NCBI GenBank assembly: GCA_005880795.1
Contig: VBGP01000024.1
Location: forward strand, 1 to 40,469
Length of the DNA stretch: 40,469 nucleotides
Origin: Chloroflexota bacterium
Lineage (GTDB): Bacteria > Chloroflexota > Dormibacteria > Dormibacterales > Dormibacteraceae
Direction: 5' to 3'
The position numbers were made by a program, and so were the translations under genes. The notes under the pieces were generated by a model. That model was not told the origin of the DNA. It did no database searches and saw only the letters and a program-made list of their open reading frames with translations. Below, piece after piece: positions 1 to 12,735 of this stretch. Within the stretch, counting starts at the first letter, position 1. Each line of letters opens with the position of its first letter.

Positions 1-513
1 CCCGCTTGTCAGATTCAGTCCTCCGCCGGCGGCGTCGTCACCACCTGGTCGTTCAGCAACCTCCCGACCCAGACGGTGGCCGCCGGCGTGTGGAGCTTCA
101 AGATGTACTGGACCGGAGGAAACGGCAATACCAGCGACACTGTGAGCGTCGCGGTCGGCGTATCCGCGACGTCGAGCTGCGCTGCATTCGTGCCGCTGAT
201 CCCCAACGTCGGTTCGACGTGGACCACGACCTACGGGTCGAGCCCCGCCATTACGACGAGTCCCTTCACAGTCAGCACGAGCGCCAGCCAGCTGCCGCTG
301 GTGATCACCGCCGGAGGCTCGCTGTGCGTCCAGGTGACTCTCACCCATAACACCGGCGGCAAACCCTCTCTCGTCTACGACGGCCCTGCCGGTTCGGGAG
401 ACACGAACATCGTCGCGCCCAGCATCATCGTGCCCGAATCACTGCTTGGTTTCTTCGGATTCGCCGTGGTCATTCCGATCTTTGCGTCACGCCTGGTGAG
501 GAGGCGTCGATGA
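1..513 (+). CDS. Secreted surface protein with PEP-CTERM-like sorting tail (5' partial)
   Basis: The frame is open from base 1, so the N-terminus and signal peptide lie outside the window; 170 residues remain. The visible part is rich in Ser, Thr, Gly and Val in alternating patterns that suggest a beta-sandwich surface domain. The C-terminus has a tripartite sorting signal: a short V-P-E-S motif, a hydrophobic helix of about 18 residues (LLGFFGFAVVIPIFASRLV) and a terminal run of four arginines. This is the architecture of PEP-CTERM and related exosortase substrates. The stop codon overlaps the start of the exosortase-family gene (ATGA), which suggests a dedicated substrate-enzyme pair. The first GTG inside the frame (base 76) is not a credible start because the sequence before it continues the same fold. 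Family of the ectodomain not recognised. Confidence 0.7.
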   Translation, partial: PACQIQSSAGGVVTTWSFSNLPTQTVAAGVWSFKMYWTGGNGNTSDTVSVAVGVSATSSCAAFVPLIPNVGSTWTTTYGSSPAITTSPFTVSTSASQLPLVITAGGSLCVQVTLTHNTGGKPSLVYDGPAGSGDTNIVAPSIIVPESLLGFFGFAVVIPIFASRLVRRRR

Positions 514-1091
514 AGACTCGCGATCGGGACAACATCAACCTGACGCTGATCGCGCTGACGTGCGCCATGCTCATGCTGCTCCCGCTCGTCACCACATTCG
601 ACGACCTCCTCACGACCTGGGCGATGCAGCTGGGCGCGAACAATCCGCTGCAGGCGATCGTGCCCGCGGAATCCCGGATGGTGGTGAGCCTGCTCAGCCT
701 GGTCGGCATTCACGCTGCCGCCTCGGGCAGCCATCTCGTCGTATGGGATGGCTCCGGGTCGATGCACACGCTGTACATCTCCTGGAACTGCATCGGCTGG
801 CAGAGCCTGATCCTCTTCGGAGTCAGCCTCATCTCAGGCCTGCGAGGCACGCAGTCCGTAGAGTCGCGCGTGCAGGTGGTCTGCATCGGACTGGCGGGCA
901 CGATGCTGCTCAACCTGGTCCGCGTGTCCGCGGTGGCGGCGATCGCCGCGACCGTGGGCGTGACGCCGGCCATCCTTTTTCACGACTACGGCGGCACCGT
1001 CTTGTTCGTCGGCTTTCTCTTCGCGTTCTGGGCTTTCGCGCAGCGCTGGATTCTCGATTCGCCGGCGTCTCGGCAGGAGATGACCGCATGA
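510..1091 (+). CDS. Exosortase/archaeosortase family transpeptidase
   Basis: A 193-residue polytopic membrane protein with about five hydrophobic helices. It carries the three hallmark residues of the exosortase/archaeosortase superfamily in the right order: Cys94 in SWNCIGWQSL, Arg138 in LLNLVRVS and His158 in FHDYGG. Members cleave a C-terminal sorting signal in the membrane and transfer the protein to an anchor or glycan. It is shorter than classical EpsH-type exosortases (about 280 residues) and close to a minimal core. Start ATG 510 follows GAGGAGG-like sequence at 497-504 and overlaps the preceding stop by 4 nt. The gene ends in another ATGA overlap with a glycosyltransferase gene, so sorting and glycan genes are translationally coupled. 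Subfamily not assigned. Confidence 0.85.
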   Translation: MKTRDRDNINLTLIALTCAMLMLLPLVTTFDDLLTTWAMQLGANNPLQAIVPAESRMVVSLLSLVGIHAAASGSHLVVWDGSGSMHTLYISWNCIGWQSLILFGVSLISGLRGTQSVESRVQVVCIGLAGTMLLNLVRVSAVAAIAATVGVTPAILFHDYGGTVLFVGFLFAFWAFAQRWILDSPASRQEMTA

Positions 1092-3316
1092 ACCGCTGGC
1101 TCCGGCTCGGGCTGCAGACAGCCTTCGGGCTGGGTCTCCTCTGGCTGTGGCTGCGTACCGTATCGCTGCCCGAGATCCTCAGCCACGCGCGCGTGCACAG
1201 CTGGTGGGTGGTCGCGGTGATGCTCTTGCTGGCCCTCACGACGAGCGTGATCCGCGCCCGGCGCTGGCTCATCCTCCTGCGACCGCTGGCTCCCGTGGGC
1301 ATGGTCAGGGCGTTTGCGATGAACGCCGGGGCAAGCCTCCTCAACTATGTCCTTCCCATTCGCTCCGGGGACGCCGCGCGCTACTGGTGGCTGTGGCGCC
1401 GCCATCGCGTGCCGTCAGGCTCGGCGCTGGCCACGATCGTCATCGACAAGTCCTGCGACCTCGCGGGTGTCGCGATCGTCCTCGGCGGGCTGTCGCTCGT
1501 CGCCTCGACCGGGCTCGTGAGCGCGCCCCGCGGTCTGTTCGGCGCGGCGGCGCTCGCCATCCTGCTGCTGGCGGCTGTGTTCGGCACTGCCGTCCTGGGT
1601 CCGCGCATCGCCGGCTCGGCACGAATCCGGCGCCGTTTGCCGCTGTCCGTGGCCGCCGGCATGTCGGGCCAGGCGTTCGCTTTTCGGGCCGTGGCCCGGG
1701 GGCTGTGGACACCTGCCGTCGTCGGTCGCCTTGCGGCGCTCACCGGGATCGCCCTCGTGATCGACGCCTTCAACTTCAGCCTGCTCTTCTGGGCGCTCGG
1801 CGTCTCGGTGCCGACGCTGAAGGCGATGGCCGCCTACCCGGCGCTGCTGCTGGCGTTCGCCGTGCCCGCAGGACCTGGTTACGTGGGCAGCCTCGAGGTC
1901 GCGGGAGCGCTGGTGCTCGGCGGTGGACTCGGCCTCAGCTCGTCGATCGCGGCCGGCGCGATCGTGCTCTACCACGCGATCACAGCGGGGTACTCGCTCG
2001 GGCTGGGACTGTTGGGCCTGCTCCTGGTCGGCGGCAAGCGAAGGACGAAGGCCGGAGGACCGCGGCGAGTCGCCGTGTTTCACTGCGGTTTCACCTACGC
2101 GGGCGGTGGCGAGCGATTGGTGATCGAGGAGGTGCTCGGCCTGCGGCGTCGCGGCTATGACGTCGAGTGTTACGCGCCCACGATCGACGCGTCTCGCTGC
2201 TATCCCGACATCATTGGTGAGGTGCGGGTCAAAACCTTCCTGCCCCAGCTGCCCCGCTGGTTTCCTTACCGAGAGGCGGTCCAGATGGCGGCGACCTCTC
2301 TGCTCATGCCTCTGTATGCCTGGCGCTTCAGGGGAGTGGACGCAATCGTCGGCTGCAACCAGCCGAGCGCATGGATCGCCTGGTGGGCGGCACGGCTGAT
2401 GGACGTGCCCTACGTCGTCTATCTCAACCAGCCCAACCGGCTGGTCTACCCGCGCAACATCGACCGCCAGACTGGATGGATCTCCAACGCGGACTACCGG
2501 CTGCTCGCCGCGATCGTGCTGCGGGCGACGCGCTTTGTCGCGTGGGCGGACAGGCGCTCGATCCAGGAGGCGGACCTGCTGCTCGTCAACGGCAAGTACA
2601 TCGGCGACATCATTCGCAAGACGTACCGCAAGGAAGCGCTGGATTGTCCGGCGGGTTGCCACGTCGCAAGCTCTGGTTTTCCGCTGCCGGTCGAATCGCG
2701 TTTCAGCGGAGGGCTGACCATCAACGGGTATCCCATCCGGCGCCCCTACGTTCTCCTGACCAACCGGCATTACCCGCAGAAGCGATTCGACCTGGCGATC
2801 CGCGCCATGGCCGAGGTCCGAAAGAAGCATCCCCGCGCGCAGCTCGTCATCCCGGGTCCAGCCACCTCGCACACCGCTTCGCTGAAGACGCTCCTGGCCG
2901 AGCTCGGCATGGACGACGCTGTTCTTTTCCTAGGTCCGATCAGCGAGGACGAGCTTCAGTCGCTGTACGAGGGAGCCGCGGTGTACGTCTACCCCGCGCC
3001 TGAGGAAGACTTCGGAATGGGCGTGATCGAATCGATGGCCAAGGGCGTGCCGGTGGTCGCGTGGAACCAGGCCGGCCCGACGGTCACGGTGGCCACGGGG
3101 ACCGGGCACCTCGCCGAACCGCTCGACGTAAGCGATTACGCCGCCGGAATCATCCGGCTGCTCGACAGCCCGGCCGAAAACCAGGCGACTGGCGAGCGCG
3201 CGTTTGCATGGGCGCGGCGCTTCGACTGGGAGCGGCACATCGATGTCCTCGAGGAAGCCGTGCTGGACGTTGCCCGAGCGCACGAGCAGGTCGCACTGGA
3301 AGCAGCAACCGCTTGA
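1088..3316 (+). CDS. Fusion of UPF0104/LPG-synthase-like membrane domain with GT4 glycosyltransferase
   Basis: 742 residues in two parts. Residues 1-315 form a polytopic domain of the lysylphosphatidylglycerol synthase TM / UPF0104 (flippase-like, AglD-related) family, with the typical P-IRSGDAARYW (90-100) and AGPGYVGSLE (261-270) motifs. Residues 325-742 form a GT-B glycosyltransferase of family 4, similar in its N-terminal part to ALG2-type mannosyltransferases (HCGFTYAGGGERLV at 332-345). It has the EX7E motif E640-E648 in EEDFGMGVIESM and a nucleotide-binding loop near AGPTV. The two parts are usually separate proteins. Fusion suggests glycosyl transfer at the membrane face coupled to lipid-linked substrate handling, which is inference. 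Starts in the stop of the exosortase gene (ATGA). Confidence 0.85.
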   Translation: MNRWLRLGLQTAFGLGLLWLWLRTVSLPEILSHARVHSWWVVAVMLLLALTTSVIRARRWLILLRPLAPVGMVRAFAMNAGASLLNYVLPIRSGDAARYWWLWRRHRVPSGSALATIVIDKSCDLAGVAIVLGGLSLVASTGLVSAPRGLFGAAALAILLLAAVFGTAVLGPRIAGSARIRRRLPLSVAAGMSGQAFAFRAVARGLWTPAVVGRLAALTGIALVIDAFNFSLLFWALGVSVPTLKAMAAYPALLLAFAVPAGPGYVGSLEVAGALVLGGGLGLSSSIAAGAIVLYHAITAGYSLGLGLLGLLLVGGKRRTKAGGPRRVAVFHCGFTYAGGGERLVIEEVLGLRRRGYDVECYAPTIDASRCYPDIIGEVRVKTFLPQLPRWFPYREAVQMAATSLLMPLYAWRFRGVDAIVGCNQPSAWIAWWAARLMDVPYVVYLNQPNRLVYPRNIDRQTGWISNADYRLLAAIVLRATRFVAWADRRSIQEADLLLVNGKYIGDIIRKTYRKEALDCPAGCHVASSGFPLPVESRFSGGLTINGYPIRRPYVLLTNRHYPQKRFDLAIRAMAEVRKKHPRAQLVIPGPATSHTASLKTLLAELGMDDAVLFLGPISEDELQSLYEGAAVYVYPAPEEDFGMGVIESMAKGVPVVAWNQAGPTVTVATGTGHLAEPLDVSDYAAGIIRLLDSPAENQATGERAFAWARRFDWERHIDVLEEAVLDVARAHEQVALEAATA

Positions 3317-4971
3317 AGCTGCGCTTGCCGCGCATCCTCGCCAGCGAAGATGAGGACGAGGAGGAGGACCGGCCGAGTGCTGCCATCTCGGGAGCCGGGC
3401 AGGAGGAACATCCGCAACCTTCGCCACTGCCGTGGGGTTGGATGGGCCTGGTTATCGCGGCGGCGCTGGTCACTCGGCTTGGTTACCTGTTTTTGTTCGC
3501 CGATCCGCAGAACGCAGGCGACGGTTTCACCGACGCTTATCACCACTGGCAGATCGCTTACCTGACCAAGGAGGTAGGGCTTTCCCATGGCCCGAGGCTG
3601 TGGGACATGCGCGGCTGGGAGTACTTCTGGGGACCTGTCCACCCGCTGTTGATGAGCTTGCTGTTTTTCGCGACCGGGTCGACCTCCATCGTGCTCGCAC
3701 GGTTGCTCAGCCTCGCGTTCGGCACCTTTGGGGTGGCATTGATCTTTCTGCTCTGCAGGCGGTACTGGGGACTTGGCGTGGCAGTCTTCGCGGGTGCGTT
3801 CGCCGCGCTATCACCGGTGGCGATCTTCAACGACACCGCTGGTATGGCGGAACCGATCGCCATCGCGCTACTCCTCTTCGGCATCTGGCTTTTGCCGCGC
3901 TGGGGCTTCTGGGCCGGACTCGTGTGGGCTGTGGCCGCGATGGCCAGGGTCGAGGCGTGGCTCTTCGGGCTTGGCCTGGTGGTGGCCTGGCTCGTCGGAG
4001 CCAGAAAGCTGCGGGGGTCGCGCGCGCCGCTAGTGATTGGATGGCTGCTCGGCATGGGCGTTTACGCGAAATTCCTGCTCGACCAGACCGGAAACCCTAT
4101 CTACCCGCTCTACATCAACTTCCAGTTCGTTGGCCTTTCGGCCGGGGGAACGGGTGGTCAGGCGGCTGGGGGAACTGTGTTGTGGTTGATGTTCGGCCTC
4201 GCGTCGACAGCATGCATGGCGGTCGTCGCGTGGTCGCTGTGGAAGCGGCCGGCATCCTACCTGCTGCTCACGCTTGGCTTCGGCTACTCAGCCCTCAGCC
4301 TCGCGACCTTTCTTCGTTACGCGACGGAGTGGAAGGAGCGCCGCTTCGAGTTTCCACTCGATTTCGCCGCGATCCTCGTAGCCATCGCCCTGGTCAAATT
4401 GCTTCCAGAACGAAAGGCACTTCCGCGCGCGGTGTCGTGGTCGGCAGCCGCCGCGGGCTTGCTCGCGGTTCAGCTGCTGTGGGTTCCGGTCCAAACGACA
4501 TATGCGTCGACGGAGCCCTTGTTCGCCTATGAGGTGAGTCTCGCCCACCAGATCGGCGCCGTCTACAACCAGCCCCAATATCGCGGTGGAGTTCTCAACA
4601 TGCCAGGCGACGAGCCCACGCTTCTGTATGTGATGGTCCGCGACGAAGGCTTGAAGGGAAGCAATGTGACGAGCCAGTTCTACGATCCCTTCTACTACCT
4701 TCCGGCCGGTTATCACTATGCCGACCATCCGAACGTCGTCGGGCCGCTACTCCAGTGCTGGCTAACCGACAGCAAAACCCGTCTGTTCCTGGTCTCGCCC
4801 CCAGGTCCGCTCAGCCGATCCGTCCCCGACTACAAGGCGTACTTCGGGGACCACCCCCAGTGGTTCGAGGACTCGGGCGCGAAGCTTCCGAACGGCTGGA
4901 GCCTCGTCGCGGTGAATGCTCCGAGCCCCACCCAAGCAGAATGCAAGGCCGCGAGATCAGCGAGCCGGTAG
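3313..4971 (+). CDS. GT-C membrane glycosyltransferase, ArnT/GT39-like
   Basis: 552 residues if translation starts at TTG 3313, which overlaps the preceding stop (TTGA). An acidic cytosolic N-terminus (about 40 residues with a D/E run) precedes about ten hydrophobic helices. The first external loop has GDGFTDAYHH (Asp70, Asp74), matching the acidic catalytic position of GT-C polyprenyl-phosphate-sugar transferases. WGPVHPLLMSL (106-116) resembles the Y-P-P-x-P-L-L segment of GT39/ArnT-like proteins. The C-terminal 150 residues are a soluble extracytoplasmic domain. Probably transfers a sugar from a lipid carrier to a surface glycan or protein; donor and acceptor cannot be read from sequence. 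An alternative start is ATG 3442, but this would remove the conserved cytosolic lead-in. Confidence 0.75.
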   Translation: MKLRLPRILASEDEDEEEDRPSAAISGAGQEEHPQPSPLPWGWMGLVIAAALVTRLGYLFLFADPQNAGDGFTDAYHHWQIAYLTKEVGLSHGPRLWDMRGWEYFWGPVHPLLMSLLFFATGSTSIVLARLLSLAFGTFGVALIFLLCRRYWGLGVAVFAGAFAALSPVAIFNDTAGMAEPIAIALLLFGIWLLPRWGFWAGLVWAVAAMARVEAWLFGLGLVVAWLVGARKLRGSRAPLVIGWLLGMGVYAKFLLDQTGNPIYPLYINFQFVGLSAGGTGGQAAGGTVLWLMFGLASTACMAVVAWSLWKRPASYLLLTLGFGYSALSLATFLRYATEWKERRFEFPLDFAAILVAIALVKLLPERKALPRAVSWSAAAAGLLAVQLLWVPVQTTYASTEPLFAYEVSLAHQIGAVYNQPQYRGGVLNMPGDEPTLLYVMVRDEGLKGSNVTSQFYDPFYYLPAGYHYADHPNVVGPLLQCWLTDSKTRLFLVSPPGPLSRSVPDYKAYFGDHPQWFEDSGAKLPNGWSLVAVNAPSPTQAECKAARSASR

Positions 4972-5780
4972 CGCCCGCCGCCTCGTTCGATTACGAGGCC
5001 AAGCGCTGGGGCGCCGCGCCGCTGCGGCCCAGGCCCTGGTACATGAACGGTCTCAAGCTGCGCTACCTGCTCGAGGACCTTGCCGGCGTTCACGGCCACG
5101 TGCTCGACGTTGGATGCGGCGGGGGATCGGTCGCCAAAGCGGTCAAGCGCGAGCGTCCGGACCTCGTCGTTTCCGGCTGCGACGTCAGCCGCTCGGCATT
5201 GGCAGCTGCCGAAGCCTCGCCAGCAGGTGTCGACTTCCGCCTCGCCACGGCGGAGCGACTTCCATTCGCGAATGGCGAGCTGGACTTCGTCTGGATCTTC
5301 GACGTGCTCGAGCATGTCGACGAACCCGAGCGAGTGCTTCGTGAGGTCGCGCGCATCTTGAAACCCGGCGGAGGATTCCACATCGTCCTGCCGCTGGAGG
5401 GCCAGCCGGGCACCCTATACCGGCTGGTCGGGTGCGGCAAACGCTGGACGGCAAAGGTCAGGCACGGCGGACACATCCAGATCTTTTCCGCGAAGCGATT
5501 CAGTGACATCGCAGCCACGTGCGGCCTGCCATTGACGCGGACGCGGTGGAGCTATCACGTGACGCTGCAGGTCCTCGACCTTCTCTACTTCTCTTGGCTC
5601 GACCTGCGAGGGCCGGTCGGTGGTTCGGTGGAGGACATGTCCGTCGCGCGGCGCGGCGTCGGCGGCAGCCTCATGCGCGGCGTCAGCAGGGCGGTCGCCA
5701 CGACGGCGTGGGGCGAGGCTCGACTGTTGCGCCGGCTACCGGGCGGATGCGGTCACTTCACGTGCAAGCGCTCGGGCTAG
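4941..5780 (+). CDS. Class I SAM-dependent methyltransferase
   Basis: 279 residues. Motif I VLDVGCGGGSV (54-64), the acidic loop after beta-2 (GCDVS, 79-83) and motif IV/post-motif (DFVWIFDVLEHVDEPERVLREV) are those of UbiE/Methyltransf_11 proteins, with KPGG at 141-144. The ATG at 4941 overlaps the glycosyltransferase gene by 31 nt; a longer in-frame extension exists upstream but would run deep into that gene. Last gene of the plus-strand glycan operon, so it probably methylates a sugar, lipid carrier or lipid. Its stop shares the palindrome CTAG (5777-5780) with the stop of the convergent epimerase gene. Confidence 0.8.
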   Translation: MQGREISEPVAPAASFDYEAKRWGAAPLRPRPWYMNGLKLRYLLEDLAGVHGHVLDVGCGGGSVAKAVKRERPDLVVSGCDVSRSALAAAEASPAGVDFRLATAERLPFANGELDFVWIFDVLEHVDEPERVLREVARILKPGGGFHIVLPLEGQPGTLYRLVGCGKRWTAKVRHGGHIQIFSAKRFSDIAATCGLPLTRTRWSYHVTLQVLDLLYFSWLDLRGPVGGSVEDMSVARRGVGGSLMRGVSRAVATTAWGEARLLRRLPGGCGHFTCKRSG

Positions 5781-9243: not shown

Positions 9244-12200
9244 ATGAAGCTGTGGCAGGCCACGATCGGCGCGTCGCCGCGGCTCGAAGGATGGGTCGGG
9301 CGAGGCTCGTCCGAGGTGCACGTGGCGCGACTACCCCGCCCCGCATGGCCGATCGTGGCCGGCGCGGTGGCTCGAGCGTCCGTGGAACGCGGAAAGCCAG
9401 TCCTGGTGCTGGTCCAGAATCCAGAACGATTCGCCGACGAGCTCCGGATGTGGCTGGCGGGCAACCCCAAGACCTACGTCTTCGCCGAGGTCGGCGTTTC
9501 GTTTCTCGACCGTCCACCCGCCTTCGATGAAGCGGTCAACCGCCGGCTCGAAGCATTGACATCCCTCGCCAACGCGCACGACGAACCAATCGTCGTCGTG
9601 TCCTCGCGCCGCGCCGCCACGCGGCAGACGATCTCGCGCGACGATCTCGTCCGGAGCACGGTGGTCCTGAAGCCAGGTCAGGGACCGGACCCCGTTACCG
9701 TCGCAGGACGGCTCGTCGAGCTCGGTTACACCCGCGAGGCGTTGGTCGAGCAGCGCGGACAGTTTTCGCTTCGGGGCGGAATCCTCGACGTGTTCGGCTC
9801 CGCCGAGGACGCTCCGGTCAGGGCCGAATGGTCGGGAGACGTGGTCGACACGCTGCGCCTCTTCGACCCGGAGAACCAGCGCTCCGTGATGGCGATCGAG
9901 GAGGCGGTCATCCGCACTGGTCGCGAGCTGCTCATCGGACCCGAGCGCGGCCGTGCCGCCGTCGAACGTCTGCGCAAGACGGTCTCGCTGAGGGAGCTCC
10001 GCGGAGATGTCCGGTCGGAGTGGGAGGACGAGCTTGGGCGGCTGGCGGAAGGCGCCGCCTTCGCCGGTGTGGAGTTCTACGCCGCCTACCTGGACCCCTC
10101 CCGGGCGTCGCTGTTCGACCACCTGCCCGAAGGCACGGTCGTGCTGGATTTCGAGCCGGGCCGCCAGCTGGCGGAAGCCCGGACGGTGCTCGACGAGACC
10201 GCGATGCTGGCGGCGGCCGAGTCGGGGGGCGGGGAGCTGCCGCGTGAGTTCACGCTGCCGACCGTGCACCGGCTCGAGGAGCTCGGCGAGAGGCCACGAC
10301 TGGTCCTGACCGCCGGCGAGGGTGCACCTGACGCGCTCGACCTGGGCTGGTTCGAGGGCGAGCCACTGGTCGGCCAGTCGCGCGCCCTGGCTGGGTTTGC
10401 GGGCCGAGGCGAAGGCGCGGACGTCGTCTTCGCCACCGAGCAGGCCGAGCGGCTGCGCGCGCTGCTGGACGAGGCCGGCGTCAAGAGAGCCCTTCAGGAG
10501 ATCGACCTGGACCTGGACCTCGATCTCGAGACCGCGATTCACCACGCGTCGGTCGACCTCGTTGCGGGCTGCGCCCAGCCGGCGATCGGTTTTCACCTGG
10601 CCACCGACGCCGAGCTCTTCGGCCGCGTCCGGCGGCCATCCCGGGGCAGCCGCGCCGCGCGCACGCGGGCCGAGGACCTGACCCGCGAATTCACGCTCGA
10701 CTTTGCGCCGGACGAGCTCGTGGTCCACGTCGACCATGGGGTCGCGCGCTTCAAGGGGATGCGGCTGATCGAGTCGGATGGCGCGCATCGCGAGTACCTC
10801 GAGCTCGAATACGCTGAGGGAGACCGCCTGTTCGTGCCGGTCGAAAACCTCGACCGGGTGCAGAAGTACCTGGGTGGGGCGGAGGGGACCCCCGCGCTGC
10901 ACCGGCTCGGCACCTCCGACTGGACGCGCGCGCGGGGACGCGCCCGCAAGGTCGTCCAGGACGTGGCGGAGGACCTGCTGAAGATCTACTCGATGCGCGA
11001 GGCCCGACCTGGCATCGCGTTCGCGCCGGACACCGCATGGCAGCAGGAGCTCGAGTCTTCCTTTCCTTATGAAGAGACGCCGGACCAGGTCGCGGCGCTG
11101 GCCGAGATCAAGGCGGACATGGAGTCGGACCGCCCGATGGACAGGCTCCTGTGCGGCGACGTCGGCTTCGGCAAGACCGAGCTTGCGCTGCGCGCAGCGT
11201 TCAAGGCAGCGATGAGCGGGAAGCAGGTCGCGGTGCTCGCGCCGACGACTGTGCTGGCACAGCAGCACTTCCACGTTTTCAGCGGCCGACTCAAGAACTT
11301 CCCGGTCGTGGTCGAGATGCTGTCGCGATTCGTCGACGACGAGGCGGCGGCGCGCACTGTCGAGGGATTGAAGAGCGGACATGTCGACATCGTGGTCGGC
11401 ACGCACCGCCTCCTCCAGCGCGATGTTCGTTTCAAGCGACTCGGCCTGCTCGTCGTCGACGAGGAGCACCGTTTCGGCGTGATGCAGAAAGAGCGCTTGA
11501 AGAAGCTGCGGACGCAGCTCGACGTCCTCTCGCTTTCGGCGACGCCCATCCCGCGCACTCTGCACATGGCGGTCGGCGGCATCCGCGACATGAGCGTCAT
11601 CCAGACTCCGCCCGAAGAGCGCCAGCCGATCAAGACGTACGTGACCGCCGATGAGGACGAGCTGATCACGGAGGCGATCGGGCGCGAGCTGCACCGGCAG
11701 GGGCAGGTGTACTTCGTGCACAACCGCGTGAGGACGATCCAGAAAGCCGCCGAGCGCGTGCGCAAGCTGGTCCCCGAAGCGCGCATCGCCATCGGTCACG
11801 GCCAGATGTCGGAAGACGAGCTCGCGACGGTGATGGTGGACTTCGAGTCCGGCAAGTTCGACGTGCTCGTATGCACGACGATCATCGAGTCCGGCCTCGA
11901 CATCCCGAACGTGAACACGATCCTGGTCGAGCGCTCCGACCGATTCGGGCTGGCCCAGCTCTACCAGCTGCGCGGACGCGTCGGTCGCTCCGGCAGGCGC
12001 GCCTACGCGTATTTCCTCTACGACTCGGGGCGCTCGCTGACCGAACAGGCGGACAAGCGGCTCGACGTGATCTCCGGCCTGCACGAGCTCGGGCAGGGGT
12101 TCAAGATCGCCCTCCGCGACCTCGAGATCCGCGGTGCTGGGAACCTGCTCGGCACGGAGCAGCACGGCGCCATCGCCGCGGTGGGCTTCGAGATGTACCT

Positions 12201-12735
12201 GCAGATGCTGCAGGGCGCGGTCAACCAGCTGCGCAGCGGCTCAGAGGAGACGGCCGTCGCGGACGTCCTTTCGACTGCCGAGATGAACCTCGACCTCCCG
12301 CTCGACCACTTCATCCCGCGCTCCTACATCCGCGACGAGAAGCTGCGCCTGGGCGCCTACCGGCAGCTTGCCGGCGCCGAGGAGGAGGGCGAGCTCGAGT
12401 CGATCCTGCGCTCGCTCAAGGACCGCTACGGCAACGCGCCCCCGCAGCTCGACAACCTGGCGTACTCGCTGCGCGTGAAGCTGAAGGGGCAGCGCATGGG
12501 CTTGCGCGGGGTGATCGCGGAGGGCCACGACATCGTGATTCGCGTCGACCCGCAGCGTTTTCTCGACGTCGAGGAGCTGTCACGGCGGCTCGCCGGGCGC
12601 ATCTCGCTTGGCCCGAACCGAATCAAGATGCGGCGGCAGGGCGAGGGCTGGGAGCAGGATCTCACGATGCTGCTGGACGAGATGGCGCAGCTCTACCAAT
12701 CGGGTCAGCCGGCGGCGGTTCCGTCGCCTTCATAG
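9244..12735 (+). CDS. mfd: Transcription-repair coupling factor Mfd
   Basis: 1163 residues, full length. Domains in order: UvrB-like N-terminal module (about 1-420), the CarD-like RNA-polymerase interaction domain starting near residue 480 (DELVVHVDHGVARFKG), translocase lobes with Walker A GDVGFGKTE (around 638-646), DEEH box near 739, LSATPIPRTL motif III and GRVGRSGR motif VI, then the C-terminal TRCF domain. It removes stalled RNA polymerase and recruits UvrA. A short hydrophilic-hydrophobic repeat (DLDLDLDLE, encoded near 10504-10530) sits in the linker before the polymerase-interaction domain. ATG directly abuts the pth stop. Confidence 0.97.
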   Translation: MKLWQATIGASPRLEGWVGRGSSEVHVARLPRPAWPIVAGAVARASVERGKPVLVLVQNPERFADELRMWLAGNPKTYVFAEVGVSFLDRPPAFDEAVNRRLEALTSLANAHDEPIVVVSSRRAATRQTISRDDLVRSTVVLKPGQGPDPVTVAGRLVELGYTREALVEQRGQFSLRGGILDVFGSAEDAPVRAEWSGDVVDTLRLFDPENQRSVMAIEEAVIRTGRELLIGPERGRAAVERLRKTVSLRELRGDVRSEWEDELGRLAEGAAFAGVEFYAAYLDPSRASLFDHLPEGTVVLDFEPGRQLAEARTVLDETAMLAAAESGGGELPREFTLPTVHRLEELGERPRLVLTAGEGAPDALDLGWFEGEPLVGQSRALAGFAGRGEGADVVFATEQAERLRALLDEAGVKRALQEIDLDLDLDLETAIHHASVDLVAGCAQPAIGFHLATDAELFGRVRRPSRGSRAARTRAEDLTREFTLDFAPDELVVHVDHGVARFKGMRLIESDGAHREYLELEYAEGDRLFVPVENLDRVQKYLGGAEGTPALHRLGTSDWTRARGRARKVVQDVAEDLLKIYSMREARPGIAFAPDTAWQQELESSFPYEETPDQVAALAEIKADMESDRPMDRLLCGDVGFGKTELALRAAFKAAMSGKQVAVLAPTTVLAQQHFHVFSGRLKNFPVVVEMLSRFVDDEAAARTVEGLKSGHVDIVVGTHRLLQRDVRFKRLGLLVVDEEHRFGVMQKERLKKLRTQLDVLSLSATPIPRTLHMAVGGIRDMSVIQTPPEERQPIKTYVTADEDELITEAIGRELHRQGQVYFVHNRVRTIQKAAERVRKLVPEARIAIGHGQMSEDELATVMVDFESGKFDVLVCTTIIESGLDIPNVNTILVERSDRFGLAQLYQLRGRVGRSGRRAYAYFLYDSGRSLTEQADKRLDVISGLHELGQGFKIALRDLEIRGAGNLLGTEQHGAIAAVGFEMYLQMLQGAVNQLRSGSEETAVADVLSTAEMNLDLPLDHFIPRSYIRDEKLRLGAYRQLAGAEEEGELESILRSLKDRYGNAPPQLDNLAYSLRVKLKGQRMGLRGVIAEGHDIVIRVDPQRFLDVEELSRRLAGRISLGPNRIKMRRQGEGWEQDLTMLLDEMAQLYQSGQPAAVPSPS

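Follow-up and report, generated by a model that had tools for sequence, protein, structure and literature searches.

The short exosortase-family protein encoded next to a set of glycan genes in the genome of this soil bacterium of the Dormibacterota raises the question of which substrate it serves, and whether enzyme, substrate and glycan genes together form a system for protein sorting and glycosylation. The window analysed here is a stretch of 40,469 nucleotides and covers contig C121 of a draft genome from end to end. Its start lies inside the upstream gene, so that the sequence-only reading saw just the end of this gene.

The upstream gene and its fusion to a glycosyltransferase

The features of the locus, all on the plus strand, are the following:

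1..429, plus strand: C-terminal part, predicted secreted jelly-roll domain of a family-2 glycosyltransferase (GT2) fusion protein; the GT2 part, the internal signal sequence and the start of the domain are on contig C115
430..510, plus strand: C-terminal sorting-type tail of VPES (430-441), hydrophobic helix and RRRR (Arg4, 499-510)
510..1091, plus strand: short exosortase/archaeosortase-family protein of 193 amino acids (Cys94 789-791, Arg138 921-923, His158 981-983)
1088..3316, plus strand: fusion of LPG_synthase_TM (flippase-like) and GT4, an operon neighbour not constant among relatives
3313..4971, plus strand: polytopic membrane protein with weak PMT_2 (GT-C-like) similarity, operon neighbour
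4941..5780, plus strand: class I methyltransferase (PF08241), operon neighbour with a 31-nt overlap

The open frame 1-513 has the C-terminal sequence VPESLLGFFGFAVVIPIFASRLVRRRR and terminates in IIVPESLLGFFGFAVVIPIFASRLVRRRR, followed by the stop codon at 511-513, which the exosortase ATG at 510 overlaps by 4 nt. The tail and the overlap with the 193-residue exosortase gene were thus confirmed as first described, and so was the flippase-GT fusion, since PF03706 (LPG_synthase_TM) and GT4 domains are found in one protein. The three glycan genes had been described as following with 4-nt overlaps; this applies to two junctions (1088-1091 and 3313-3316), while the third, between the GT-C-like and the methyltransferase genes, is 31 nt long (4941-4971).

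Searching the genome with the protein of a relative showed that the last 171 bases of contig C115 are identical to positions 1-171 of the window. Joining the two contigs yields a 799 amino acid protein, in which a GT2 is fused to a cassette carrying the VPES tail. N-terminal membrane helices lead into the GT2; behind it come more helices, a stretch rich in basic residues, a hydrophobic segment, the domain and the tail, with helix positions read from the relative P0006. The GT2 part has the motifs DDS, DxD, TED and QxxRW and the flanking membrane helices of a processive synthase. GT2, domain and tail form one uninterrupted frame in sixteen relatives, all Dormibacterota assemblies, and a shortened frame of the same kind (437 amino acids) in L002. 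An artefact of frame or assembly was considered and rejected, as the frame is open in these sixteen relatives, in archaea and across the exact 171-bp contig overlap. The upstream protein, previously taken for a simple secreted protein, is instead the C-terminal cassette of a GT2 synthase. Of the signal peptide expected by extending leftwards none was found at the N-terminus, but one is present inside the protein, behind the GT2.

This internal hydrophobic segment is preceded by a basic flank, just as a basic flank follows the tail helix, and ends in ...VRAPVVKA/AGNPLYLHG with a signal-peptidase-like site V-K-A/A-G. In all 24 proteins in which the site was located the pattern is of the signal-peptidase type: position -1 is Ala, position -3 is small, and -2 is hypervariable and may be charged (K, R, D, E; also Q). 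By hydropathy, the GT2 domain is followed by three helices before the basic linker begins, so that the linker would be outside unless one helix was missed or does not span the membrane.

The secreted domain of about 170 amino acids has no match in Pfam or NCBIfam (P0001 hit 0 NCBIfam families at a limit of E 10), and sequence search found no solved structure for it. The AlphaFold model of the secreted part is a beta-sandwich (mean pLDDT 81.6), whose best fold match is the jelly-roll domain of CocE-type hydrolases (E 3.8e-6, TM 0.55 of query), with weaker matches to carbohydrate-binding modules, e.g. CBM61.

The internal segment could also be an uncleaved transmembrane helix, in which case the jelly-roll would stay an extracytoplasmic accessory domain of the GT2, for example for glycan guiding, and the exosortase would do no more than swap the C-terminal anchor, so that the synthase becomes attached to a lipid or glycan. 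The in-frame fusion, found in nearly all genomes bearing the domain, suggests that the parts may need to stay together, and the predicted fold is in line with such an accessory role. However, the small residues at -3 and -1 around a variable, often charged -2 look like a signal peptidase site, the archaeon G260 encodes the domain on its own, behind an ordinary signal peptide, and free-standing copies occur in G492; we regard this explanation as rather unlikely.

Upstream of the GT2 gene lies an intergenic element of about 65 nt (L073:878-940 on contig C115; also L003:2963, L012:2865, L035:10097 and others), present in one copy per genome and almost invariant in family f1, including G027 where the GT2/exosortase pair is lost. 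On its minus strand a C-rich stretch (CCUCACCCCCC) precedes a hairpin and UUUUUU, and the fold z-score is -3.6, making the element a candidate small RNA; an Rfam search of the element gave nothing above the gathering score. One exact copy, again upstream of this GT2, is found in G044, which belongs to a different family (f17) within the phylum. The operon is probably regulated by the product of a small gene (L073:1145-1501), which has two helix-turn-helix repeats and overlaps the GT2 start in TGATG with its end; the G044 counterpart of this small gene (L116:1779-2339) has three HTH_17 repeats.

The short exosortase and the sorting tail

The 193 amino acid protein scores 32.9 bits against the general exosortase/archaeosortase model TIGR04178 (cut-off 23), and relatives score 34.9, 36.4 and 47.7 bits. 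Cys94, Arg138 and His158, together with the remaining residues of the proposed C-x-G-W-x-S active site, bear out their assignment, as Cys94, Gly96, Trp97, Gln98, Ser99, Arg138 and His158 are invariant in an alignment of nineteen sequences. None of the named subfamily models (XrtG, XrtX, XrtY, ArtC, thaumarchaeosortase and cyanoexosortases) is matched above its cut-off, the best scores being 32.8 bits for TIGR04297 (cut-off 250), 28 for XrtX (170) and 17.7 for XrtG (102.75). The suggestion that no described subtype fits therefore holds as far as NCBIfam goes. The structure model is of moderate quality (pLDDT 72.5), and comparison to solved structures gave no match by fold or by sequence. In a tree built without other exosortase subfamilies, the short sequences linked to a GT2 form a group apart from the long thaumarchaeosortase-like ones of archaea (support 100/99). 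From these sequence comparisons we read the enzyme as an unnamed exosortase subfamily with a dedicated substrate made as a GT2 fusion.

The tail, VPE[S/A/G/H] followed by a helix and a basic end, is present on the upstream frame beside the exosortase in all eighteen bacterial relatives of the locus (L002-L019), a recurrence beyond chance, and P-E is nearly invariant among tails of bacteria and archaea. Motif, transmembrane helix and basic cluster at the extreme C-terminus are thus arranged as in PEP-CTERM proteins. No curated C-terminal signal model of NCBIfam matches the tail, and the signal sequence is internal instead of N-terminal, the unfused archaeal P0013 having an N-terminal one.

In the genome of the window the VPES tail is the only significant one (E 1.8e-13) detected with a profile of 26 tails, in which some of the detected tails were themselves included. 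The next candidate (E 0.3) aligns with model positions 10-30 alone, a range without the VPE motif, so the genome-wide search found no other tail carrying the motif. Six other genomes also have one significant tail, and G402, which has two exosortases, has two. Elsewhere the number is higher: at least five in G123, three in G163 and several, including stand-alone copies, in G492. A single dedicated substrate per genome is a frequent state, though not one found everywhere.

L034 (G123) and L100 and L103 (G163) encode large secreted repeat proteins that end in VPE-like tails, and stretches in several of them carry an xLYLx motif resembling the one at the start of the GT2-fused domain. These proteins are a multi-substrate version of the system.

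Distribution in bacteria and archaea

Comparison of 110 genomes of the class detected the exosortase in 38 and the domain in 37, with both present in 36 and neither in 71 (Fisher p 2e-25, a value which ignores relatedness). The three exceptions are G520, in which a contig end cuts off the domain, and two genomes, G027 and G509, with only C-terminal exosortase remnants and no domain. As the neighbours of G027 are intact on both sides (an RmlD-like gene and the flippase-GT4), exosortase and domain were lost together. Four genomes (G511, G522, G531 and G532) have two exosortases each, with an adjacent domain beside each one. Out of 201 genomes sampled from the phylum seven have the domain, all of them with the exosortase. 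Outside the class, but within the phylum, G123 has a response regulator-GT2-domain-tail protein next to one exosortase and a secreted tail protein of more than 1000 amino acids next to a second. The GT2 type is also present in G163, where it is divided between two contigs. The partners being present or absent together across the class, and the tail being the sole significant one in this genome, uphold the proposal of a dedicated exosortase-substrate pair.

The same module occurs in archaea, judging from their gene sequences, and the substrate domain is there joined to the GT2, joined to the exosortase or encoded on its own. In L065, L066, L067 and L068 the exosortase is followed by GT2, domain and tail as a single ORF. 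In L070:2043-3353 (P0011, G402) the exosortase itself is fused in frame to a secreted domain with its own sorting tail. In L071 (G260) the substrate is a separate 268 amino acid protein (P0013) and the GT2 lacks the domain. Of 250 genomes from the phylum to which the archaeon L020 (Ca. Terraquivivens) belongs, 8 have the short enzyme. The split frame in L020 and L064 was not accepted as a genuine arrangement and is attributed to frameshift or decay, given the single ORF in L065-L067. The tail of the L070 fusion reads V-V-S-E-N and not V-P-E-N, and the fusion adjoins a second exosortase with the histidine motif HNY.

These distributions also bear on the possibility that the tail is a membrane anchor only and that the exosortase acts on other proteins, being nearby as part of a generic glycan locus. 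Cleavage of the tail is a prediction and no named C-terminal signal model matches it, as such an anchor would allow. However, the absence of any other tail in the genome, the co-occurrence and co-loss of exosortase and domain, the near invariance of P-E in both domains of life and the exosortase-tail fusion in G402 make this very unlikely.

The same comparison applies to the downstream glycan genes, since flippase-GT4, GT-C and methyltransferase might build a glycan attached to the substrate within a five-gene operon, as the sequence-only reading had it. The gene overlaps of the window, which recur in most relatives from family f1, agree with this, as does a similar GT-C-like gene directly after the locus in L018 and near the archaeal L071. 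However, L016, L037 and the archaeal L065-L067 have the pair without these genes, and G027 has kept the genes without the pair. A five-gene unit is thus not borne out and we consider it unlikely; the downstream glycan genes are optional company and not a constant part. After the glycan genes of L003 a large polytopic membrane protein is encoded (10536-12545) with a weak match, below cut-off, to PTPS_related, a family which occurs in XrtG loci.

Proposed processing and relation to known systems

In our probable interpretation, mechanism included, the exosortase of this locus is dedicated to a single substrate, which the neighbouring gene produces as a C-terminal cassette behind a processive-type GT2. 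The GT2 with its membrane helices, the internal signal sequence, the extracellular jelly-roll and the VPES-helix-Arg4 tail would be made as one chain. The internal signal peptide implies a second cut, by which signal peptidase would free the jelly-roll domain from the GT2. The exosortase, through Cys94/Arg138/His158, would cleave the tail at VPE and link the C-terminus thus created to an acceptor, either lipid or glycan, by analogy to PEP-CTERM sorting (PMC1569441) and ArtA (PMC7157517), and the fusion would ensure one-to-one production of synthase and surface protein. Fusion, motifs, exosortase linkage, co-occurrence and co-loss and the archaeal alternatives were all read from the gene sequences, whereas cleavage and the attached moiety follow from the analogy. 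Weighing against this interpretation are the three-helix topology, the multiple tails in G123, G163 and G492 and the moderate exosortase model.

As acceptor the GT2's own product is natural, being suggested by the fusion, but is the least supported part. Extended to bacteria and archaea this would be a polyprotein-type sorting, with synthase and surface protein made as one chain and parted by signal peptidase, and with the dedicated exosortase joining the freed C-terminus to the polymer or lipid-linked glycan produced by that same synthase, giving a one-to-one protein-polysaccharide conjugate; we put this forward tentatively and hold it to be doubtful.

Among the closest known systems is PEP-CTERM/exosortase (EpsH, XrtA), with a median of eight secreted proteins per genome that carry a signal peptide at the N-terminus and, apart from one family of three members, lack membrane helices between it and the tail, and with EpsH homologues of at least eight predicted helices (PMC1569441). 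Shared with it are the tripartite tail (P-E motif, helix, basic end), a polytopic enzyme with invariant catalytic residues and the link to exopolysaccharide genes. Here, in contrast, there is usually one substrate, fused behind a GT2, and the enzyme has 193 residues. Exosortases with an associated glycosyltransferase gene, as here, are XrtG, XrtP and XrtY (TIGR03110/TIGR03111, NF053846, NF046083/NF046085). Our exosortase does not come near the cut-offs of XrtG and XrtY, and the GT2 is set apart by model score from the XrtG- and XrtP-associated glycosyltransferases, being far below their models (31.1 bits against the XrtG-associated TIGR03111, cut-off 364).

Thaumarchaeosortase (TIGR04297) and ArtA have a related catalytic region, and the present group too has archaeal members, but those enzymes are longer (about 300 amino acids for the TIGR04297 model) and the tail motif of ArtA is PGF, differing from the one here. 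ArtA cuts and lipidates the C-terminal tail, combining peptidase and lipid transfer via its active-site Cys (PMC7157517). For the GT2 the best-scoring characterised models are PgaC/IcaA, NodC and cellulose-synthase-type enzymes, which share DDS, DxD, TED and QxxRW. Unlike these it has the secreted jelly-roll and the sorting tail in addition, and it is far below the equivalog cut-offs (88 bits against 422 for TIGR03937, PgaC/IcaA). A literature search of non-exhaustive coverage found no paper naming an exosortase in Dormibacterota and no earlier description of a GT-exosortase-substrate fusion. The parts are of known kinds; what appears to be new is the arrangement, an exosortase substrate carried by a glycan synthase, in two domains of life.

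The locus is real, and its interest differs from the one first seen in it. The frequent neighbourhood of exosortases to polysaccharide genes has been a correlation since 2006 (PMC1569441), and this module bears on the open question of what is added to the substrates of exosortases. Two genes, found in both bacteria and archaea, form a closed module of glycan synthase, substrate and sorting enzyme. Physical fusion ties the three functions together, the substrate being part of the synthase chain or, in one archaeon, of the sortase chain. Such fusions bring a test of the link between synthase, substrate and sortase down to two genes and give the exosortase class an unusual, dedicated and testable substrate.
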